Source of the DNA: an uncultured Oscillospiraceae bacterium
GTDB taxonomy: Bacteria; Bacillota; Clostridia; Oscillospirales; Ruminococcaceae
Direction: 5' to 3'
Length of the DNA stretch: 47,406 nt
NCBI GenBank assembly: GCA_949298535.1
Contig: CASFXA010000079.1
Span: forward strand, 1-47,406
Shown: positions 27,158 to 37,358 of the stretch, piece by piece
Layout of the letters: every line of letters starts with the position of its first letter
Numbering within the stretch: the first letter of the stretch is position 1
The notes under the pieces: generated by a model
Seen by the model: the letters and a program-made list of their open reading frames with translations, nothing else
What the model was told of the DNA's origin: nothing
The model's database searches: none
Position numbers and translations under genes: made by a program

Positions 27158-27883
27158 TCAGCCGGACGGTTCGGAATCCTTTACAGATACAGAAGGAGGC
27201 ATCAGGTATCCCACGCCGTTCTCTGTGAGAATGTAGCGGGGAGATCCGGGGAAAGGCTCCAGCTTTCGGCGGATGTTCGTGATGTTCACCCGGAGAATCT
27301 TATTGTTTTCATTATGGTAGGGCCCCCAGATCCGTTCCATAATCCGCCGGTGGCTCAGCACATGGCCGCCGTTGCGGGCCAGCAGTTCCACAATTCGGTA
27401 CTCGATCTGAGTCAAATGGACCTTCACCCCATCCAATTGAACCAACCGACGGGTGAAATCGATGAGCAGCCCTTCATAACAATAGATGCCTGTTGGGCGG
27501 TCAGATTCTGTCAGCCTTCGGCTCAGGCGGATGGCGGCATGGATATAAGCGGGGAACTCCACGTTGCCCCAGGGATAAAAAAGAATATAGTCGGCGCCGA
27601 TATTCAATAAGATTGCGGTTTCCGCTTCGGTTAAAGGGGGAGCCAGAACAAGAATGGGGCGCAGGTACCATTCCCGGAGCTTCTCGATCAGCCATCTGGG
27701 ATCCATGGAGGACATCTCCAGATCCAGCACAACGGCGTCCGGCAGATGGGAGACAGCCAGAGTCATGGTCTCCTGCCCGCTTTTGGCGCAGATGGGAAGA
27801 AACTTTCCTCCCGTCAGGATATGGGACATCCGCTGCAACTTATGGGAATTTTCCGAGGCGACAAGAATTTTTCCTGCAAACAT
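27158..27883 (-). CDS. Orphan OmpR/PhoB-type response regulator
   Basis: The ATG at 27883 is behind AAAGGAG; the longer frame begins in sequence without a ribosome site. Of 241 residues, 5-120 form a receiver-like domain (KILVASENSHKLQRM, then VVLDLEM with the likely phospho-acceptor Asp near 55), but the usual acidic pair after the first strand is SEN here, so phosphorylation is uncertain. Residues 135-230 are a winged helix: YEGLLIDF, VHLTQIEYRIVELLARNGG, RRIMERIWG, LRVNITNIRRKLE and ENGVGYLM. No histidine kinase gene is adjacent. The resemblance is to KdpE-like regulators, at domain level only. Confidence 0.87.
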   Translation of the reverse strand: MFAGKILVASENSHKLQRMSHILTGGKFLPICAKSGQETMTLAVSHLPDAVVLDLEMSSMDPRWLIEKLREWYLRPILVLAPPLTEAETAILLNIGADYILFYPWGNVEFPAYIHAAIRLSRRLTESDRPTGIYCYEGLLIDFTRRLVQLDGVKVHLTQIEYRIVELLARNGGHVLSHRRIMERIWGPYHNENNKILRVNITNIRRKLEPFPGSPRYILTENGVGYLMPPSVSVKDSEPSG

Positions 27884-28602
27884 GGTGAAGAACTCCTTTC
27901 CATCAGAGCGGAGAGGTGAAAGAATCATTTTGAATTATTTTATGCAAAAAATGGAAAAGTCGGAGAAAATCAGGAGATCTGTCAGGATCGATTTATTTTC
28001 ACTTTTGTTCCCCTGAAAGAGAAGAGCTTTCTGGAAAAGGGGATCATTCCCTGAGGTGATTTAAAAAATGGAGGTTCCCCTTGGTTCATTGGGCGCATGG
28101 ACAATCCGCGATCTCCTGGACAGGCGGCATTAATCCTGACAAAATCAGGATTAATGCCGCAGTTTTGCGCTTCTGTAGGTGTGGATCACAGGAGCAAATT
28201 CAAGAGCGGATCCAGATTTTGATGAGATTGACCGCCGTTTATTCTGCCCGGCAGATTCTTCTGAAAGGGGCGTTTTTATTATAACATTGCAGACAAAAGG
28301 AAGGCAATGTTTTTCCGGCGCTGCTTTCCGCACGTCTTCCAATCGGAGAAAAAATCGAAGTTGGAAAACAAAAACTTGCGTTTTTAGCGTTTTCTTAGCG
28401 AAATAAGACTGTACGCGCCCGAAGATTTCAGCTATAATTAATATCAAATTATTTCTAAAATCTTGCGTTAAAAATGAAGTATTTAACATTTTTGTGTGAT
28501 AAAATCAAGTATTTTATGTTTTCACTGTGGCCCCGCGCAAGCTGGAGTTCACGATGAAATAAAACAAAGAACCCTGAAGGAACTATAAGGAGGAACTAAA
28601 GT
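27884..28602. promoter_or_regulatory. Regulatory gap between the orphan regulator and the DUF3798 importer
   Basis: It contains a perfect 16-bp stem (28124-28139 with 28145-28160, 5-nt loop) followed by AGTTTTG, probably a terminator; a TATAAT at 28432-28437 without a convincing -35; and two imperfect 23-bp direct repeats starting at 28471 and 28501, exactly 30 bp apart (AAAATgAAGTATTTaaca and AAAATcAAGTATTTtatg). No gene is supported; a frame at 28081 would run through the terminator hairpin. Confidence 0.5.
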
Positions 28603-29805
28603 ATGACCAAGAAGCTGCTTTGCCTGGCAATGGCTGCCATGATGATTTTTGCAGGCTGCCGTGGCGCTGAAGCTCCCGCCGAACCGGCATCCGACTCCAC
28701 CCCCGCTTCCAGCGCTGCGGAGTCTGCCGCCGAATCCACCCCCGCCGATGCCGGGAATTTTAAAATCGGCATTATCACCGGCACCGCTTCCCAGGGCGAC
28801 GAAGAAATTACTCAGGCCAACAAAATGAAGGAAAAGTACGGGGATATGATCGTGACTGCTACTTATCCCGATAACTTCTCCACCGAGACGGAAACCGTTA
28901 TTTCCAACGCGGTTGCCATGGCCTCCGATCCCGACGTCAAGGCTATCGTCTGGTGCCAGGCGATCCCCGGCACCGCCGCTGCCATTGACAAGGTCCGCGA
29001 GACCCGTCCCGACATGATCTTTATCGCCGGCACCCCCGGCGAGGACCCCGGCGTCATTGATCCCAAGGCGGACGTTGTCCTCCAGGTGGATGAGCCTGGC
29101 TGCGGCATTGTTATTCCTCCCCAGGCTGCCGCCCAGGGCGCCAAGACCATGATCCACTATTCCTTCCCCCGTCACATGAGCTACGCGCTGATTGTGGCCC
29201 GTCATGAGAACCTGAAGAAATACTGCGAGGAGAACGGCATCGAGCTGGTGGACGTCACCGCTCCCGATCCCACCGGCGACAGCGGCATCACCGGCGCGCA
29301 GCAGTTCATTCTGGAGGACGTTCCGCGCCAGATTGAAAAGTACGGTAAGGACACGGTGTTCTTCACCACCAACTGCGGTATGCAGGAGCCTTTGATCCGC
29401 AAGGTTTTTGAGGAAGGCGCTATTTACACTCTCCAGTGCTGCCCCTCTCCCTTCCATGCCTTCCCCGCCGCCCTGAACATCGATATGTCCGGCCATGAGG
29501 CGGATGTGACCTATATGCTGGAGCAGCTCCAGGCCAAGGTGGATGAGGCTGGCATGAGCGGCCGGGTTTCCACCTGGGGCGTTCCCTGCAATATGCTGTT
29601 CGTTTCCGCCGGCGTCGAGTACGCCAAGAAGATCCTGGAGGGCGAGACCAATGGCACCCTGGACGACGCGGTTCTCCGCGCCACCATCCAGGAGTGCGCT
29701 GAGGAATTCTATCCTGGCATCGAGATGACCGTGGAGAACTATGAGGAAAACGGCGCCTCTGTGGCCAACCATTACCTGGTCATGTCTGATTTCGTGACCT
29801 TCTGA
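28603..29805 (+). CDS. DUF3798 substrate-binding lipoprotein of an ABC importer
   Basis: A 400-residue lipoprotein: signal MTKKLLCLAMAAMMIFAGC with lipobox IFAGC at 15-19, an Ala/Ser/Glu/Pro linker to about residue 50, then a two-lobe periplasmic-binding fold starting FKIGIITGTASQGDEE. The pattern matches DUF3798 as I recall it. Several cysteines sit in conserved-looking loops (PGCGIVIPP, TTNCGMQEP, LQCCPSPFHAFP, GVPCNMLF), unusual for a binding protein. Start ATG is behind AAGGAGG. Codon bias is strong, and a terminator separates it from the ATPase gene, so it is probably made in excess over the membrane parts. The ligand is unknown. Confidence 0.88.
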   Translation: MTKKLLCLAMAAMMIFAGCRGAEAPAEPASDSTPASSAAESAAESTPADAGNFKIGIITGTASQGDEEITQANKMKEKYGDMIVTATYPDNFSTETETVISNAVAMASDPDVKAIVWCQAIPGTAAAIDKVRETRPDMIFIAGTPGEDPGVIDPKADVVLQVDEPGCGIVIPPQAAAQGAKTMIHYSFPRHMSYALIVARHENLKKYCEENGIELVDVTAPDPTGDSGITGAQQFILEDVPRQIEKYGKDTVFFTTNCGMQEPLIRKVFEEGAIYTLQCCPSPFHAFPAALNIDMSGHEADVTYMLEQLQAKVDEAGMSGRVSTWGVPCNMLFVSAGVEYAKKILEGETNGTLDDAVLRATIQECAEEFYPGIEMTVENYEENGASVANHYLVMSDFVTF

Positions 29806-29849
29806 TCCATTGGCGTATATCCTGAACTCAAAACCGATCTGAATCACAG

Positions 29850-29890
29850 GACCCGCCAGCTGGCTTTTACAGGCTGGCGGGTCATTTTTT
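29850..29890 (+). terminator. Terminator between binding-protein and ATPase genes
   Basis: GACCCGCCAGC-N12-GCTGGCGGGTC followed by ATTTTTT; expected to be leaky so that downstream ABC genes are made at lower level. Confidence 0.8.
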
Positions 29891-30042
29891 CAGCGGGGCT
29901 TCCTTCTGACGGAGGAAGTGCTTTTGGCGGCAGCGGAGCGCCATGTCCACAGCAGCCGGCGTCAAAAAGCCCTTGACTGGGGGAAAAGCCGCCGGCTTAT
30001 GGACAGAAAGACGCAATCGAAAACAACAAGGGAGGTATGACA

Positions 30043-31653
30043 TTGGAGCGAAGCTATGTCCTGAAAATGGATAATATCTCCAAGGAATACAGCGGCAACC
30101 GGGTTCTCAAAGGGGTCAGCCTTCAGGTGAGACCCGGCGAGATTCATGCCTTGATGGGGGAGAACGGCGCGGGCAAATCCACCCTGATGAACATTTTGTT
30201 CGGAATGCCGGTGATCCACTCCACCGGCGGCTTTGAAGGGTCCATCGAAATTGGCGGCCAGCCGGTGAAGATTGACACGCCGGTCAAAGCCATGGAGCTG
30301 GGAATCGGCATGGTGCATCAGGAATTTATGCTGATCCCCGGTTTTACCGTCACAGAGAATATCAAGATTGGACGGGAGCTGAGCCATCCCAATCTCCTCA
30401 GCCGTCTGGTGGGACGGAGCATGGAGACGCTGGACCTGGCGGCCATGAAAAAGGACGCCAAGGCCGCTTTGGATACCATCGGCCTGAAACTTTCCCCCAA
30501 TGCCAAGGTGGGGGGGCTGCCGGTGGGCTATATGCAGTTTGTGGAGATCGCCCGGGAGATTGACAAAACCGGCATCAAGCTGCTGGTATTTGATGAGCCG
30601 ACAGCGGTGCTTACCGAGAGCGAGGCGGCCCGGCTGCTGGAGACGATGAAGGTCATTTCCTCCCAGGGCATCGCGATCATCTTCATCACCCATCGGCTGG
30701 ACGAGGTGATGGCGGTGGCCGACAGCCTGACTGTGCTGCGGGACGGCGAGTTTGTGGCCCGGCGGGAGATCGCGGAAACCAGCGTGGTGGAGATTGCCGA
30801 GCTGATGATCGGGCGCAAGGTGGAAAAGTTGGTGGAAGACCAGGGAACGGACAATCGAACCCTGTCTGATGACAACATCGCCGTCAGCCTGCGGGATTAC
30901 AGAGTGAATATGCCGGGAGAGCTGGTCAAAGGCATCGACCTGGACATCCGGAAAGGTGAGATTTTCGGCATCGGCGGTCTGGCAGGGCAGGGTAAACTGG
31001 GGATTCCCAATGGCATCATGGGTCTTTACGCCGCTGCTGGAGAAGTGCGGGTCAATGGACAGCTGCTGGATCTGAACCGTCTGGGAGAGGCGCTGCGCCA
31101 CAAGGTGGCCTTTGTTTCCGAGGATCGTCGGGGCGTTGGCCTGCTGCTGGAGGAAAGTATCGAAAAGAATATCGTTTTTTCCGCCATGCAGGTCAATAAT
31201 GACTTTTTCCACAAATACGGCTGGATTCGTCTTCACGACGGCAACGCCACCCGGCGCCATGCCGAGGAGATGGTCAAAAAGCTGGACATCCGCTGCACCG
31301 GCATCCGCCAGACGGCGGGAAGGCTTTCCGGCGGCAATCAGCAAAAGGTTTGTCTGGCCCGGGCCCTGACCCTCAATCCGGAGATCCTCTTTGTGTCGGA
31401 GCCCACCAGAGGCATCGACATCGGCGCCAAAAAGCTGGTGCTGGAATATTTGGTCAAGCTCAATCGGGAACAGGGGATGACCGTTATTGTAGTCTCCTCT
31501 GAGCTGGTGGAGCTGCGGTCAGTCTGTGATCGGATCGCCATTGTTTCCGACGGTCGTCTGGCCAGTATTCTCAAGCCGGATGATTCCGATGCGGACTTCG
31601 GTTTGGCCATGTCCGGCGGGTTGAAGAAAGGAGGCGGTCAGCGTGCGGGATAA
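30043..31653 (+). CDS. RbsA-like double-domain ABC transporter ATPase
   Basis: Energising subunit of the DUF3798 importer, two fused ATPase domains, 536 residues. An ATG at 30037 lies 1 nt after GGGAGG; TTG at 30043 has the proper 7-nt spacing and is preferred. Domain 1 (about 5-245): Walker A GENGAGKST with Lys45, Walker B LLVFDEP with Asp184, but the signature is LPVGYMQ rather than LSxGxxQ. Domain 2 (about 255-520): degenerate Walker A GLAGQGKLG (normal in this family), canonical signature LSGGNQQK, and Walker B ILFVSEPTRGID where Ser452 replaces the Asp. The following permease gene overlaps it by 11 nt. Confidence 0.93.
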   Translation: MERSYVLKMDNISKEYSGNRVLKGVSLQVRPGEIHALMGENGAGKSTLMNILFGMPVIHSTGGFEGSIEIGGQPVKIDTPVKAMELGIGMVHQEFMLIPGFTVTENIKIGRELSHPNLLSRLVGRSMETLDLAAMKKDAKAALDTIGLKLSPNAKVGGLPVGYMQFVEIAREIDKTGIKLLVFDEPTAVLTESEAARLLETMKVISSQGIAIIFITHRLDEVMAVADSLTVLRDGEFVARREIAETSVVEIAELMIGRKVEKLVEDQGTDNRTLSDDNIAVSLRDYRVNMPGELVKGIDLDIRKGEIFGIGGLAGQGKLGIPNGIMGLYAAAGEVRVNGQLLDLNRLGEALRHKVAFVSEDRRGVGLLLEESIEKNIVFSAMQVNNDFFHKYGWIRLHDGNATRRHAEEMVKKLDIRCTGIRQTAGRLSGGNQQKVCLARALTLNPEILFVSEPTRGIDIGAKKLVLEYLVKLNREQGMTVIVVSSELVELRSVCDRIAIVSDGRLASILKPDDSDADFGLAMSGGLKKGGGQRAG

Positions 31654-32731
31654 TGCAAAGGCTTTGGTGCGGCAGGTGGGACTGCCCCGGATTATTATTG
31701 CGGGATTTTTCCTGCTGCTGCTGGTGGCTGCGGGCGGATTTCAGATGGATCTGCTTCAGTTGTGCAGCGACTTTCTCCGCCGGTGGGGAATGTACGGCAT
31801 CCTGGCGCTGGCGATGGTGCCTGCGGTCCAGTGCGGCATCGGTCTGAACTTCGGCATTTCCATGGGTATTGTAGGCGGTTTGCTGGGCGGTCTGATTGTC
31901 ATTGAGTTCCGCCTGGCCAGTATTCCCGCTTTGGTGGAGATTCATCCGCTGCTGGCTCAGTGGGTGGGAATTCTCATCGCCATTCTCATCGGCGTGGTGC
32001 TGGCCGCAGGTATCGGCTGGCTGTATGGCCTGCTCCTCAACCGGGTCAAAGGTTCGGAGATGACGGTGACCACCTATGTGGGTTTCTCCATCATCGCGTT
32101 TATGAATATCCTGTGGACCATCCTTCCCTTCCAGAGCGGCGAGCTGATCTATCCCAACGCCGGCCAGGGTCTGCGGAATACCATCTCCCTGGCGGATTCC
32201 TATTCCGGTGTGATGAACGACACCCTGGCCATTACAGTGGGTTCCCTGACCATCCCTACGGGACTGCTGCTCTTCTTTTTCCTGATGTGTTTGCTGGTCT
32301 GGCTGTTTATGCGCTCCAAGACCGGCGAAGCCATGAGCGCTGCCGGCGCCAACCCCAATTTTGCGCGGGCCAACGGCATCAATGTCAACAAGATGCGTTT
32401 GGTGGGCACCATTCTTTCCACCGTCCTGGCCGCCGTGGGAATTTTGGTTTATGCCCAGGGCTTTGGCTTTATGCAGCTGTATAACGGTCCCATGATGATG
32501 GGCTTTACTTCGGTGGCGGCGGTACTGATCGGCGGTGCTTCTCCCCGCCGGGCCTGTATCTCCCACGTGCTGATCGGAACGTTTTTGTTCCAGAGCATCA
32601 TGGCGCTGGCGCTGCCGGTGGCCAATCAGTTCATCCCCGAGAGCAATCTCTCCGAAGTGATGCGGCTGATTATTTCCAACGGCATCATCATCTATGCGCT
32701 GACTCAGACAGGAGGTGGCAGCCGTGAATAA
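31643..32731 (+). CDS. ABC transporter permease 1 (BPD_transp_2 type)
   Basis: Membrane subunit of 362 residues with 8-10 hydrophobic segments. GTG start 8 nt after GAAAGGAGG. Family features are the NFGISMGIVGGLLGG segment near 73, the coupling loop MRSKTGEAMSAAGANPNFARANGINVNK near 228-255 (split: MRSKTGEAMSAAG, ANPNFARANGINVNK) and VAAVLIGGAS near 300. These are shared with permeases of nucleoside/BMP and ribose-type importers. It overlaps the ATPase gene and is overlapped by permease 2, a tight translational unit. Confidence 0.93.
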   Translation: MRDNAKALVRQVGLPRIIIAGFFLLLLVAAGGFQMDLLQLCSDFLRRWGMYGILALAMVPAVQCGIGLNFGISMGIVGGLLGGLIVIEFRLASIPALVEIHPLLAQWVGILIAILIGVVLAAGIGWLYGLLLNRVKGSEMTVTTYVGFSIIAFMNILWTILPFQSGELIYPNAGQGLRNTISLADSYSGVMNDTLAITVGSLTIPTGLLLFFFLMCLLVWLFMRSKTGEAMSAAGANPNFARANGINVNKMRLVGTILSTVLAAVGILVYAQGFGFMQLYNGPMMMGFTSVAAVLIGGASPRRACISHVLIGTFLFQSIMALALPVANQFIPESNLSEVMRLIISNGIIIYALTQTGGGSRE

Positions 32732-34226
32732 AAGAAAGATCCTGGACCGGCTTTTCGAGCAAAAGGTGGTCATCCTCTTTGTGGTTCTGTGCGTGCTGAC
32801 CATTGTGGCATCCAAACAGCCGCTGACCTTTGTGGCAAACGAGCTGTTTACCCGGATTGCCCGGAACTCCTTCCTGGTGCTGGCCCTCATCATCCCGGTG
32901 CTGGCCGGTATGGGCCTGAACTTTGGCATTGTAATCGGCGCTATGGCGGCCCAGATCGCTGTTTTTCTCACCACCCACTGGGGATTTGTGGGCATCGGCG
33001 GTTTTCTGCTGACAGCCCTGCTGGCAACGCCCATGGCGGTGTTTTTTGGATTTTTGGTAGGCAAGCTCTTCAACAAAGCCAAGGGCTCCGAGATGATCTG
33101 CGGCCTGGTGCTGGGCTATTTCGCAGAAGGTTTGTACCAGTTGCTGTTCCTGTTTATTTTCGGCGGCGTCATTCCCATTGACAATCCCACTTTGATGATC
33201 GCCACCGGCGTAGGAGTCAAAAACACCATCGACCTGAAGGACACCATTAAGTATTCCCTGGACACTGTTCCCATGCTCACCATTCTGGAAATTGGATTCT
33301 ATCTGGTGGTGGCGGCCATTGTCCTTTCTGTGGTAATCAAGCTGGCGAAGAAGCAGCCGGTCCACTGGAAGAAAACCGGGATTGCGCTGATTTTGGCGGT
33401 GGCGATTTATGCCTTGACCTATATCCCCGCGGTGGAGAGCTTCCTGGCGGCGGACCGCCTGCTGCTGCTGTGGGCGGTGGAGCTGTGGGTGGCTTTGGTG
33501 CTGCTGTGGCAGGCCGGGCGGTTTCTGGTGCTGAAGGTGATCCGCAAGGAGGAGCTGGACCTGAAGCGGCTGGCGGCCATCTGTGTGGCGGCGGTGCTGG
33601 TCTATGCGTTGACCTATGTGCCGGCCATCTATGAGGTGCTCATTTATGTCCGCCTGCCTGTGATGACCTATGTCTGCATTGCCGGCCTCTGCCTGCTCAA
33701 TACCGCCCTGATGCGGACCCGTTTGGGCCAGAATATGCGCACCGTGGGGCAGAACCGGGTGGTGGCCAACGCCGCAGGCATCAATGTGGATCGCACCCGT
33801 ATCATCGCCATGATTTTTTCCACTGTTCTGGCCAGCTGGGGACAGCTGATCTTTCTGCAGAATGTGGGAACCTTTTCCACCTATGGCGCCCATACCCAGG
33901 TGGGTCAGTTCGCCATTGCGGCGCTGCTAGTGGGCGGCGCTTCGGTCCAGAAGGCCACCAACAAACAAGCGATTCTGGGCGTGGTGCTGTTCCATACTCT
34001 GTTCATCGTGGCGCCTTTGGCAGGCAAGGAGCTGTTCGGCAACGCCATGATCGGCGAGTATTTCCGCGTCTTTGTTTCCTATGGCGTTATTGCTCTGGCT
34101 CTGGCTATGCACGCCTGGAAGAAGGTGTCTGGAGTGGGACCCTCCACTGATTTTGCCCCGGCTTCCGCAAGCGCTTTGGCCGGCGGAACCTCCGCCCCGG
34201 CTTCCGGAGGCGGAAAGGCGGGCTGA
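32724..34226 (+). CDS. ABC transporter permease 2 with internal duplication
   Basis: Partner permease of 500 residues, about 140 longer than its neighbour. GTG at 32724 is 8 nt after GGAGG. The N-terminal 160 residues and the C-terminal part (MRTRLGQNMRTVGQNRVVANAAGINVDR loop, split: MRTRLGQNMRT and VVANAAGINVDR; LLVGGAS) match the BPD_transp_2 pattern. Between them, about residues 215-330, two similar hydrophobic units occur: IYALTYIPAVESF and VYALTYVPAIYEV, 65 codons apart. The C-terminus is a Ser/Ala/Gly/Pro-rich cytoplasmic or external tail. It ends the operon. Confidence 0.92.
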   Translation: MNKRKILDRLFEQKVVILFVVLCVLTIVASKQPLTFVANELFTRIARNSFLVLALIIPVLAGMGLNFGIVIGAMAAQIAVFLTTHWGFVGIGGFLLTALLATPMAVFFGFLVGKLFNKAKGSEMICGLVLGYFAEGLYQLLFLFIFGGVIPIDNPTLMIATGVGVKNTIDLKDTIKYSLDTVPMLTILEIGFYLVVAAIVLSVVIKLAKKQPVHWKKTGIALILAVAIYALTYIPAVESFLAADRLLLLWAVELWVALVLLWQAGRFLVLKVIRKEELDLKRLAAICVAAVLVYALTYVPAIYEVLIYVRLPVMTYVCIAGLCLLNTALMRTRLGQNMRTVGQNRVVANAAGINVDRTRIIAMIFSTVLASWGQLIFLQNVGTFSTYGAHTQVGQFAIAALLVGGASVQKATNKQAILGVVLFHTLFIVAPLAGKELFGNAMIGEYFRVFVSYGVIALALAMHAWKKVSGVGPSTDFAPASASALAGGTSAPASGGGKAG

Positions 34227-34519: not shown

Positions 34520-34771
34520 TCAGCCCTTCAGCCCCCGGGCCTGTCGGTCCATATCTTCAATGACGATGTCATAGATCTCCCCCAGGGTGGCGCAGTATTC
34601 CAGCACCTTCCAGGGTTCATTGGTGTGGTAATGGATTTTGATGAGGTCCTCGTCTCCCACCGCCAACAGGCAGTCCCCGGCGAAGTTTTCAGTGAAGTAG
34701 TCATTGATGGCGTCCTCGTCCAGATCTTCCCCCTCAATGAGCAGCTGCGTGTCATATTTGTATTGCAGCAT
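34520..34771 (-). CDS. Free-standing DAK/FakA C-terminal-type domain protein
   Basis: An 83-residue soluble protein; ATG at 34771 behind AAAGGAG, chosen over a longer frame that runs through the promoter. YKYDTQLLIEGEDLDEDAIN, GDCLLAVGDEDLIKIHYHTN and PWKVLEYCATLGEIYDIVIEDM resemble the C-terminal domain of fatty-acid kinase subunit FakA and other DAK2/DegV-linked proteins (GDSLVVVGDEDLVKVHVHT-like). Here it is alone, without the kinase or DAK2 domain. A lipid- or kinase-related accessory role is a guess. Its promoter is divergent from the TPP riboswitch operon. Confidence 0.75.
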   Translation of the reverse strand: MLQYKYDTQLLIEGEDLDEDAINDYFTENFAGDCLLAVGDEDLIKIHYHTNEPWKVLEYCATLGEIYDIVIEDMDRQARGLKG

Positions 34772-34805
34772 CCCGATTCTCCTTTCCCTGTGAATTCTTA
34801 TCTTC

Positions 34806-34834
34806 ATCTTACAATATGACGGACGCCTTTGCAA
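34806..34834 (-). promoter_or_regulatory. Promoter of the DAK-type domain gene
   Basis: Minus strand TTGCAA, 17 bp, TAAGAT. Confidence 0.65.
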
Positions 34835-34877
34835 GAGAAAATCTTTCCCTGCCGCGGCTTGCGGGGCCTTTCCGCCC

Positions 34878-34906
34878 TTGACAAAAATGGGGGAAAGGGT
34901 TATCCT
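34878..34906 (+). promoter_or_regulatory. Promoter of the thiamine salvage operon
   Basis: TTGACA, 17 bp, TATCCT; the transcript starts just before the riboswitch. Confidence 0.7.
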
Positions 34907-34923
34907 GTACAGGAACAACAGAA

Positions 34924-35012
34924 CAGCGCCGGGGAGCTTGTGAAACAGGCTGAGAGGAAGCAAGACAGCTTCGACCCGCAAACCTGATTTGGGTAATGCC
35001 AACGTAGGAATC
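34924..35012 (+). ncRNA. TPP riboswitch (THI element)
   Basis: Aptamer core seen directly: GGGGAGC, AGGCTGAGAGGAAGC then AGCTTCGACCC (P3), AACCTGATTTGGGTAATGCC and AACGTAGGAA. These are the conserved THI-box blocks in the correct order. Bound thiamine pyrophosphate should favour the terminator that follows and reduce thiW-thiM-thiE expression. Confidence 0.95.
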
Positions 35013-35018
35013 GTTTTG

Positions 35019-35057
35019 AAAAAGCAGGGATGCCGTTGGCGTGTCTCTGCTTTTTAT
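35019..35057 (+). terminator. Riboswitch-controlled attenuator
   Basis: AAAAAGCAGGGA with TCTCTGCTTTTT, one G.U pair, followed by ATTG. It lies directly after the aptamer and is the likely expression platform. Confidence 0.8.
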
Positions 35058-35353
35058 TGTTGAGGAAGCCGCCTGGGCTGTTCCGAGGGGAGGAGGGCCG
35101 GAGGAGAAAACAGAAAAAGCCATAACCTGTCAGCAAGGATTTGTTGTACGGCGGGCCGAGGGGGAGCGCCCTGGGCTCGTGCAGGTTTGGACGCAGCGAT
35201 GGGAAGCCGTGTTCCGGCGTGAGAGGAAGCCAGTGAGCTTCGACCGGGGAGAGGGGGAAACCCTGTCCCGTTCCACCCGCCGGGGGAAAGGCTGCGTCAA
35301 AAACAGTTCCATCCCGGAGAGGACAAGCGAAAAAAGAAAAGGAGCTGTTGAAC
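35058..35353 (+). other. Leader between attenuator and thiW, with a P3-like fragment of the THI element
   Basis: A 296-bp stretch without a supportable gene. At about 35218-35245 TGAGAGGAAGCCAGTGAGCT then TCGACC closely repeats the P3 part of the riboswitch (TGAGAGGAAGCAAGACAGCT then TCGACC), but the other conserved THI blocks are missing. Confidence 0.5.
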
Positions 35354-35860
35354 ATGAAACGTATGCAAACAAGAAAGCTGGCTATGGCGGGCCTTCTCAC
35401 TGCGGTTGCGGTGGTGGGCAGTATGTTTTCCTTCCCGATGTTTGGGTCCAAATGCGCCCCCATTCAGCATATGGTCAACGTCATCTGCGGGGTCTTTTTG
35501 GGTCCCTGGTACGGGGTGGGGTCCGCTTTTGTGGCCAGTCTGCTGCGGAATCTGCTGGGCTTGGGAACGCCTATGGCCTTCCCCGGCAGTATGTGCGGAG
35601 CGCTGCTGTGCGGGCTGGTGTACCGGAAGTTCCCCCGCCTGCTGCCCACCTGTATGGCAGAGGTGTTTGGCACCGGCGTTTTGGGAGGTCTGGCGGCCTA
35701 TCCGGTGGCGATTTATATTGTGGGTCAGGATGCCAGCCAGGTGGCCTTTTACGCCTTTATCGTTCCGTTTTTGATCTCCACGGCGGTGGGCTCCGTGATC
35801 GCCGGACTGGCCCTCAGCGCCCTGAGAAGCAGCGGAGCCCTTAAAACACTGTCCGTATAA
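35354..35860 (+). CDS. thiW: ECF transporter S component ThiW
   Basis: Substrate-binding membrane subunit of an ECF importer for the thiazole moiety of thiamine. ATG at 35354 is 9 nt after AAAAGGAG; a TTG two codons earlier is too close. The 168 residues have about five or six hydrophobic segments; APIQHMVNVICGVFLGPWYG near 35 and LLRNLLGLGTPMAFPGSM near 60 are the ThiW hallmarks. It is followed after 27 bp by thiM, whose product phosphorylates the imported hydroxyethylthiazole, and is controlled by the TPP riboswitch. Confidence 0.93.
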   Translation: MKRMQTRKLAMAGLLTAVAVVGSMFSFPMFGSKCAPIQHMVNVICGVFLGPWYGVGSAFVASLLRNLLGLGTPMAFPGSMCGALLCGLVYRKFPRLLPTCMAEVFGTGVLGGLAAYPVAIYIVGQDASQVAFYAFIVPFLISTAVGSVIAGLALSALRSSGALKTLSV

Positions 35861-35887
35861 ATTGTTCTGGAGAAAGGAGCGGAAGCG

Positions 35888-36712
35888 ATGGAAACAGCGG
35901 GAGAGATGTTGGCGCGGCTGCGGGAGCGTCGGCCCATGATCCATGCCATTACCAACGTCGTTACAGCCAATGATGTGGCCAATTTGCTGCTGGCCTGCGG
36001 GGCCCGGCCCATCATGGCTTCCGCCCCGGAGGAGTCGGAGGAAATCACGGCCCTGGCCGATGGCCTGGTGCTGAACCTGGGAACCCCCAATCTTCAAACC
36101 ATTTCCGCCATGTTCCTTTCGGGGAAAAAGGCCAATGCTCTGGGGCTTCCGGTGGTGTTGGACCCGGTGGGGGTGGGAGCAAGCCGTCTGCGGCGGGAAA
36201 CTGCCGCCCGTCTGCTCCGGGAAGTCCGTTTTTCGGTGATCCGGGGGAATATTTCAGAGATCCGCGCCTTGGCCCAGGGCAGCGGATGCCCCGGGGTGGA
36301 TGCCGATACAGCCCAACAGGTGACGGAAGAAACGGTGGGAGAAGCCCTGGAGTTGGTGGGCCGTTTTGCCCGTCACACCGGAGCGGTGGTGGCCGTCAGC
36401 GGAGCGTTGGACCTGGTCAGCGACGGAAGCCAGGCCAGGGTGGTCCGAAACGGCAGGGCAGAAATGGCCCTGGTCACCGGCACCGGCTGTCAGCTTTCCG
36501 CCCTGATAGGCGCTTTTGCCTCGGTTCACAAAGGGCAGATGCTGGACGCCGTCTCCGCCGCTGTGGCGGCGATGGGGCTGGCAGGGGAGCTGGCCTGGAA
36601 CAGAATGACGCCGGGAGATGGCAATGCCACCTACCGCACTGGGATTATTGATGCAGTTTTTACCATGACTCCCCAGGTCCTGGAGAAAGGAGCCCGCGTT
36701 GAAAGTCGATAG
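35888..36712 (+). CDS. thiM: Hydroxyethylthiazole kinase
   Basis: Phosphorylates 4-methyl-5-(2-hydroxyethyl)thiazole with ATP for thiamine salvage. The 274 residues match the family. IHAITNVVTANDVAN near 18-32, LDPVGVGASRLR near 97, NISEIRAL near 120 and the catalytic loop VTGTGCQLSA near 197 are visible. ATG behind AAAGGAG. Its 3' end overlaps thiE by 14 nt, so the two are translationally coupled. Confidence 0.97.
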   Translation: METAGEMLARLRERRPMIHAITNVVTANDVANLLLACGARPIMASAPEESEEITALADGLVLNLGTPNLQTISAMFLSGKKANALGLPVVLDPVGVGASRLRRETAARLLREVRFSVIRGNISEIRALAQGSGCPGVDADTAQQVTEETVGEALELVGRFARHTGAVVAVSGALDLVSDGSQARVVRNGRAEMALVTGTGCQLSALIGAFASVHKGQMLDAVSAAVAAMGLAGELAWNRMTPGDGNATYRTGIIDAVFTMTPQVLEKGARVESR

Positions 36713-37358
36713 AAAACAGTTGACCCTTTATGCCGTCACAGACCGCCGCTGGTTAAGGGGCGCCACCCTGGAAGAGCAGGTGGAGCAGGCCCTGGAGGGG
36801 GGTGTCACCTTTCTTCAGCTGCGGGAAAAGCAGGGAGATCCCCGGGAGATTTTGGAACAGGCTCAAAAGCTGCTGCCTCTTTGCCGCCGCTTTGGGGCGC
36901 CTCTGATTATCAACGATAGTGTGGAGCTGACACTAGCCTGCGGCGCGGACGGCGTTCACCTGGGACAGGGGGATATGAATCCCCGTCAGGCCCGGCGCTT
37001 GTTGGGCCCGGATAAAATCATCGGCGTTTCCGCTCACAATCCCCAGGAGGCCCGGCGGGCGATGGAGGCCGGGGCGGACTATTTGGGGGCCGGGGCGGTG
37101 TTTCCTACCGGCACCAAGACCGACGCCGGCGCTCTTTCCCGGGAGACCTTGGAGGAGATCTGCCGTTCGGTGGAGATCCCGGTGGTGGCCATCGGCGGCA
37201 TCACCAGAGAAAACGTTCTGTCTCTGGCGGGCAGCGGCGTGGCCGGGGCGGCGGTAGTCAGCGCCATTTTTGCCCAGCCGGATGTGAGGAAAGCGGCCCG
37301 GGAGATGGCGGCGCTTTGCCGCAGCGTAGCGCTGTCCGCGAAAAAAGAAGGGGATTGA
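36699..37358 (+). CDS. thiE: Thiamine-phosphate synthase
   Basis: Joins hydroxymethylpyrimidine diphosphate and thiazole phosphate to thiamine phosphate. The 219 residues show LYAVTDRRWL near the start, QLREKQGD (pyrophosphate/pyrimidine binding), IINDSVELTLACGADGVHLGQGD in two adjoining motifs, GVSAHNPQEA, GAGAVFPTGTK and VAIGGITREN. The start is TTG at 36701-36699 reading plus from 36699, 6 nt after GAAAGGAG. No thiC or thiD is present, so the pyrimidine must come from elsewhere. Confidence 0.96.
   Translation: MKVDRKQLTLYAVTDRRWLRGATLEEQVEQALEGGVTFLQLREKQGDPREILEQAQKLLPLCRRFGAPLIINDSVELTLACGADGVHLGQGDMNPRQARRLLGPDKIIGVSAHNPQEARRAMEAGADYLGAGAVFPTGTKTDAGALSRETLEEICRSVEIPVVAIGGITRENVLSLAGSGVAGAAVVSAIFAQPDVRKAAREMAALCRSVALSAKKEGD

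Follow-up and report, generated by a model that had tools for sequence, protein, structure and literature searches.

The 47,406-nucleotide stretch of DNA analyzed here (contig CASFXA010000079.1 of the uncultured Oscillospiraceae assembly GCA_949298535.1; hereafter the window) encodes, at positions 28603–34226, a complete ATP-binding cassette (ABC) importer whose binding protein is a lipoprotein of the DUF3798 family. This importer probably takes up short peptides, most likely di- and tripeptides; we put the probability of this assignment, which is drawn from gene neighborhoods, at roughly 55%. The lipoprotein, a double ATPase, and two BPD_transp_2 permeases form what can be recognized from their sequences as a conserved cassette. 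In Clostridia-like lineages, this cassette recurrently adjoins genes of exopeptidase type, namely PepQ-like M24, PepV-, PepD-, and PepT-like M20, and M42 peptidases, and the statistical tests described below show this association. It recurs across the family tree, near the window too, and in members both with and without the conserved cysteines of the binding protein. A ligand class drawn from the neighborhood, and tested both on held-out loci and against a matched control, makes an open annotation a direct binding question. If the assignment is true, gut and oral anaerobes would possess a second kind of ABC peptide importer.

The region contains four open reading frames (ORFs), all on the plus strand, with boundaries that agree with a preliminary description of this DNA. 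They encode the DUF3798 substrate-binding lipoprotein (28603..29805; 400 aa; Pfam PF12683; type I two-lobe fold), the double ATPase (30037..31653; 538 aa; two stretches matching Pfam ABC_tran), permease 1 (31643..32731; 362 aa; BPD_transp_2, E = 5e-22), and permease 2 (32715..34226; 503 aa; BPD_transp_2, E = 2.5e-08). The complete importer proposed in the preliminary description is thus confirmed by both the ORFs and Pfam. The ATPase and permease 1 genes overlap by 11 bp, and the two permease genes overlap by 17 bp. Permease 2, at about 500 aa, is like that of near relatives; in most of the distant relatives it is shorter. A fused double ATPase with BPD_transp_2 permeases, the combination that marks CUT2/RbsA-type importers, is present in the window. 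The N-terminal half of the ATPase has a good Walker A motif (GENGAGKST) and a degenerate signature, whereas the C-terminal half has a degenerate Walker A motif (GLAGQGKLG) and a good LSGGNQQ. Such asymmetry is familiar from sugar-type fused ATPases, and one full composite site is expected from these motifs. The best NCBIfam matches of the ATPase are the sugar ATPases XylG, GguA, and AlsA, all under their cut-offs (best 25 of 188 matches). Among the matches listed for the transporter parts, no equivalog, the named sugar ones included, reaches its NCBIfam cut-off.

The lipoprotein had been taken at the outset for the binding protein of a dedicated importer, and its genomic linkage favors this view. 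In a first set of loci, 117 of 138 DUF3798 copies stand in the full order of binding protein, ATPase, permease 1, and permease 2, a count that includes near-copies and excludes L001, L055, L135, and the short duplicates L058–L096. The other copies comprise 9 that meet a contig end within four genes (L113 among them, with opposite-strand genes behind it), 7 that have the ATPase followed by genes that read differently, and 5 of one genome (L133, L134) with no transporter gene behind them. The second, later set, drawn at class level and held out, retains 56 of 58 copies. Of these, 39 have the whole cassette, counting 5 that run into a contig end along with 34 others; a further 2 copies are truncated, and in 15 no ABC gene follows. 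The linkage in both sets indicates that DUF3798 proteins serve these importers as their binding proteins, a minority of copies standing alone.

Clustering and annotation of the genes around the cassette identified M24, M20, and M42 peptidases as recurrent neighbors. Flanks were collected for 92 of 134 binding proteins, after dereplication at 90%, with neighbor genes called by a purpose-written gene caller. The discovery flanks were chosen by hand. Downstream, they take in 78 of 87 genes at positions +1 and +2; upstream, they take in 56 of 86 genes at position −1, most of them on the same strand and a few on the opposite one. Pfam places 6 of the downstream genes in M20 and 5 in M24; upstream, it finds M42 in 4 genes, M20 in 4, and M24 in 3. 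The upstream M20 matches that were checked singly (L022, L028, and L002, the orthologue of L003) are M42 matches too, and the discovery total was counted as 18 peptidase genes out of 134. The control, 134 genes at least three positions away in the same loci, contains 2 M20 genes, with M24 and M42 absent from the best 25 families listed (Fisher 2.5e-4). For same-strand positions −1/+1, a local M24 profile has 8 matches in 104 genes, with otherwise none from −3 to +3 and none in 268 genes further out; the local M20 profile gave fewer matches than Pfam. The 72 DUF3798-bearing genomes hold 263 M24 genes, methionine aminopeptidase included, which means that chance would seldom place one at a direct flank. 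A 2-hydroxyacyl-CoA dehydratase is uninformative as a neighbor, since it occurs in the control as well (2/134).

The held-out set shows the same association. Among its 40 cassettes having at least two transporter genes, M20 or M24 genes account for 14 of 59 same-strand −1/+1 genes (12 cassettes), as compared to 1 of 183 genes further away (Fisher 9e-9). Pfam agrees, assigning 7 of the 59 near genes to M24 and 7 to M20. Eight of the 40 cassettes (within L222–L231) come from classes centered on discovery genomes, of which G350 and G079 were already peptidase-flanked, and in this biased part peptidases make up 7 of 10 flanking genes. The evenly drawn part, from the window's class, gives 7 of 49 versus 1 of 166 (Fisher 1.5e-4). 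Because it has the same sign and remains strong, the biased part leaves the odds that we assign unchanged. PnrA/Bmp (PF02608) importers provide the matched control. Like RbsB-type (CUT2) systems, they share the four-gene order, the double ATPase, and the two BPD_transp_2 permeases, but have a binding protein of another Pfam family. In 20 BMP cassettes from the same genome pool, none of the 32 flanking genes is such a peptidase (Fisher 0.0017 versus 14/59; 0.038 versus 7/49). The reference peptidases with which the held-out and BMP sets were scored were taken from the discovery flanks, and other peptidases could escape this scoring.

The distribution of the peptidase neighbors was followed on a tree of 138 binding proteins, a quick tree with long-branch warnings, inferred with no mixture model and excluding held-out copies at or below 250 bits. 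The peptidase-flanked label changes 19 times, with at least 15 of these changes forced by starred branches. It occurs four times within the window's own 18-row clade (L003, L031, L022, and L028), and in L003, the row nearest to the window, the cassette is preceded by a PepT-like gene and followed by an M24 gene. Flanked loci cover ten family codes, plus named loci such as those of Anaerotruncus and Lachnospiraceae. The tree counts and this taxonomic spread mitigate, but do not remove, the problem that kinship poses for the Fisher tests.

Several of the neighbors can be named. Those in L181, L202, and L205 are dipeptidases PepV above the NCBIfam cut-off of NF005591, although the older PepV cut-off of TIGR01886 is not reached, and the neighbor in L048 is a beta-Ala-His dipeptidase above the cut-off of TIGR01893. 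The M24 neighbors of 360–380 aa are nearest to the Xaa-Pro dipeptidase PepQ, the other scanned M20 neighbors to PepT-like, unnamed-subfamily, dipeptidase, or DapE/ArgE-like models, and the scanned M42 neighbor to aminopeptidase models, in each case below cut-off. The two long M24 genes, in L003 and L031, have no NCBIfam match at E 1e-25. Their orthologue in L002 combines M24 with Creatinase_N_2 and Peptidase_M24_C in Pfam, a make-up that we take to be aminopeptidase-P-like.

A number of observations weigh against a peptide ligand. No peptidase flanks the window's own cassette; beside it lie a response regulator, a FakA-like ORF, and a thiamine pyrophosphate (TPP) riboswitch with thiW. The label falls on only 28 of the 138 binding proteins, leaving 110 without it; among the 28, L172 has its M20 gene at +2, and no transporter gene follows the binding protein of L113. 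The label also clusters on the tree, where its 19 changes compare with a shuffled mean of 25.9 and 0 of 500 shuffles are as low. As a result, the association is overstated by the Fisher tests, in which related loci count as independent. Response_reg equals each peptidase family beside the held-out cassettes (7/59), and genes of amino-acid metabolism adjoin the cassette too. Most scanned neighbors fall under the curated cut-offs of named peptidases, and the M20 and M24 families also cleave acyl-amino acids and other amides. Lastly, the bacterial peptide ABC importers known to us use another protein family.

The binding protein was examined for features that bear on the ligand. It matches DUF3798 (PF12683) over residues 53–323 (E = 2.3e-113; 378.6 bits versus a cut-off of 24.6), its sole Pfam match at E ≤ 1e-3; Bmp (PF02608) is not matched, and a comparison with NCBIfam returned nothing. 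Cys19 stands in a context that reads as lipobox-like, with a cysteine there in 112 of 138 relatives. An AlphaFold2 model built from 27 aligned sequences has a predicted local distance difference test score (pLDDT) of 86.3 and a predicted template modeling score (pTM) of 0.82. The best Foldseek match, far ahead of the others, is the Protein Data Bank (PDB) entry 3qi7, with a template modeling (TM) score of 0.72 on the query and 0.79–0.80 on the target. The next matches are leucine-, urea-, ribose-, and other type I binding proteins with TM scores of about 0.4–0.5 on the query. By sequence, 3qi7 is likewise the only relative in the PDB (family profile, E = 4.6e-80; sole match at E ≤ 1). A solved riboflavin-binding RfuA is not among the profile's matches at E ≤ 1, though RfuA itself was not compared directly; the other phmmer matches in the PDB are adenylate kinases only, at E = 0.04 or worse. 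The preliminary description had placed the lipoprotein in no ligand-defined family, and this stands: Pfam gives DUF3798 only, NCBIfam gives none, and 3qi7 is the sole PDB relative. The latter is a C. difficile DUF3798-type protein from structural genomics, deposited as a 'putative transcriptional regulator', and we know of no ligand for it. In a profile alignment it is without the family's FPRH, TNC, and QCC motifs. A gene with the same aberrant motifs (L212) has no ABC genes and adjoins a branched-chain amino acid carrier. The missing motifs and the stand-alone gene that shares them indicate that the solved structure is that of an atypical member.

Four cysteine-bearing motifs, PGCGI, TNCGM, LQCCPS, and VPCNM, had been singled out in the binding protein as odd for a sugar or nucleoside binder. 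All four are present, but their conservation across the 138 family members differs. The cysteines of TNCGM (C258) and LQCCPS (C279 and C280) are conserved, with C-C-C at 258/279/280 in 121 members, whereas those of PGCGI (C167, 18 members) and VPCNM (C329, 19 members) are not. The remaining states of the triad are DDL (9), DDT (1), VSD (2), LCS (2), FTH (1), EGY (1), and ESN (1). The three positions change nearly as a block, chiefly to Asp-Asp-Leu/Thr (10/138). Members with D-D-L/T, V-S-D, or L-C-S retain transporter genes and supply 6 of the 28 peptidase-flanked rows. Because these members also have peptidase neighbors, the cysteines seem not to define the ligand class. In the secondary structure of the predicted model, C258, C279, and C280 lie in loops directly after beta strands of the second lobe, which is where type I binding proteins hold their ligand. 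They look like an element of specificity or stability and not like a sign that the ligand is a metal or a thiol. The two L-C-S members, which are related, lose C258 and C280 together and keep C279; this suggests that C258 and C280 pair, possibly as a disulfide.

These features can be accommodated in a mechanism of peptide uptake. The surface lipoprotein would capture a short peptide between its two lobes, in a cleft that should be lined by the conserved loops following the beta strands (HYSFPRH, PDP, TNC, and QCCPSP). The block at 258/279/280 (C-C-C, D-D-L/T, V-S-D, or L-C-S) may tune which peptides bind. The lipoprotein would pass the peptide to the permease pair, with ATP hydrolysis powering uptake, and cytoplasmic peptidases would then cut the imported peptide into amino acids. 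Any likeness to Opp/Dpp importers would be limited to ligand class and purpose. Opp/Dpp importers have SBP_bac_5, BPD_transp_1, and separate ATPases; neither SBP_bac_5 nor BPD_transp_1 is found among the Pfam matches of the window's cassette, which does not belong to that class. A broader proposal, which we advance tentatively and with the odds somewhat against it, is that DUF3798 marks an unrecognized, widespread class of peptide ABC importers built on a sugar/nucleoside chassis rather than on that of Opp/Dpp. In this class, the three-residue cleft block would set specificity, and the cysteines would perhaps form a disulfide or touch thiol-bearing peptides.

The importer could instead carry free amino acids or derivatives such as N-acyl amino acids and amides, the neighbors then being deacylases or part of a general amino-acid-fermentation neighborhood. 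We consider this unlikely, although some flanking genes speak for it. Class I/II aminotransferases are found in 3 of 78 downstream genes, in the related loci L013, L025, and L030. They are joined by one class V aminotransferase, alanine dehydrogenase in 2 of 56 flanking genes, and an aromatic amino acid lyase in 1 of 78 downstream and 1 of 56 upstream genes. The Leu-binding 4q6b is among the next-best folds behind 3qi7, if weakly (TM 0.45/0.52), and the M20 neighbors in L140, L122, and L225 match best with unnamed-subfamily and DapE/ArgE-like deacylase models. However, the PepQ-, PepV-, PepD-, and PepT-like neighbors that recur have a short peptide as their common substrate, which favors peptides over free amino acids.

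That the cassette takes up nucleosides, sugars, or a cofactor (thiamine or riboflavin), in the manner of PnrA, RbsB, or RfuA, is in our judgment improbable. It has the chassis of such systems, a double ATPase with two BPD_transp_2 permeases, and Xan_ur_permease accounts for 2 of 78 downstream genes. However, the binding protein has no Bmp match, and sugar-binding folds reach just TM about 0.5 on the query. A cofactor is suggested by the TPP riboswitch and thiW downstream of the window's cassette. It is also suggested by 3 of the 40 loci searched, where a flavin mononucleotide (FMN) riboswitch and a gene identified by eye as ribU-like stand just upstream. Yet these riboswitches precede genes of the energy-coupling factor (ECF) S-component type, 190–400 nt separate the ribU-like gene from DUF3798, and the other 37 loci have no FMN or TPP riboswitch (39 of the 40 loci span less than 4 kb, mainly on the upstream side). 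The FMN riboswitch was rejected as a pointer to riboflavin because it is confined to three loci of one family code and precedes the ribU-like gene; the TPP riboswitch was rejected as a pointer to thiamine because it precedes thiW in the window and a scan of 40 other loci, L035 among them, did not find it.

There is only a slight chance that the cassette imports a metal, thiol, or redox cofactor with the conserved cysteines as ligands, a reading that the preliminary description had raised as possible from the cysteine motifs: the prevalent C-C-C triad, the conserved His185 and His191, and the Cys-to-Asp exchange are compatible with a metal, but C167 and C329 are not conserved, Cys-free variants exist, the V-S-D and L-C-S members keep their transporter genes and have dipeptidase-type neighbors, no metal-homeostasis family appears among the best 25 flanking families listed per tally, and the neighborhood points to peptides.

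That DUF3798 is a solute-binding family is already in print, with PF12683 included among solute-binding-protein signatures (PMC9602780). The DUF3798 lipoproteins FN1590 and FN1899 of F. nucleatum (PMC5551000) and TPANIC_0007 of T. pallidum (PMC10600179) either are just listed or are predicted to be virulence lipoproteins, and the accessible portions of these papers mention no ligand. In epithelial co-culture, FN1590 and FN1899 are up and opp and dpp are down, according to the available part of that report (PMC12077211). Literature retrieved under the domain name, accession, PDB code, and some locus tags, as far as its text is accessible, assigns no ligand to DUF3798; subscription papers lie mostly outside this scope.

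Two features of the binding-protein gene may bear on its expression. An intrinsic-terminator-like hairpin on the plus strand (29850..29891) lies between it and the ATPase gene, with an 11-bp stem (29850–29860/29873–29883) followed by a T run. Its inner part, 29859–29878, is a match in a terminator scan that gave 14 terminator-like matches in the region versus 8.0 expected. The RNA fold of 29806–30036 has a z of −2.94, with 0 of 200 shuffles equally stable. This hairpin may keep the binding protein in excess. The preliminary description had remarked on strong codon bias in the same gene, and its effective number of codons (Nc), 34.8, is indeed the lowest among the 25 window genes (next, 37.3), a comparison made within the window; the G+C content at third codon positions (GC3) is 0.75. 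The lowest Nc together with the hairpin fits a binding protein made in excess.

Downstream of the importer, the TPP riboswitch (34920–35027, plus strand; 70.7 bits, above gathering) is followed by thiW and two ORFs that by eye resemble thiM and thiE (35348–37358, plus strand). This appears to be a separate unit, and the FMN and TPP riboswitch signals alike appear to belong to separate genes. An ORF on the minus strand (34520–35002) overlaps the TPP riboswitch, and its C-terminal 77 residues match FakA-like_M (PF21645) alone; judging from this match, the product may be a FakA middle domain standing alone, about 80 aa long. On the other side, a divergent OmpR-type regulator (27158–27928, minus strand) with a weak receiver domain (Response_reg, E = 4.5e-5) adjoins the importer. 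The three loci with an FMN riboswitch and ribU-like gene are L066, L070, and L076, where these elements lie upstream of a DUF3798 gene that has one or two further paralogues. A c-di-GMP-I riboswitch was found at one locus, L059.

The distribution of the family is patchy. Among 398 genomes sampled from the window's phylum, 68 have DUF3798 genes. The genes occur in 44 of 393 genomes of its class with a completeness of at least 90% (42 of these above cut-off) and in 10 of 148 genomes of its family, and they are also found in Fusobacterium. The binding protein of Angelakisella massiliensis (NZ_LT629945.1; L035) is 92% identical to that of the window. One genome (G209, with L133 and L134) has five DUF3798 matches, several of them close together and one with two internal stops. 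Weak DUF3798-like genes in L216–L221 (family code f188) form mostly tandem pairs with no adjoining ABC genes, and in L216 they are followed by asnA (aspartate-ammonia ligase). In L125, L127, L129, L130, and L131 (family code f29), the DUF3798 proteins are about 100 aa longer, with open frames of 501–548 aa.

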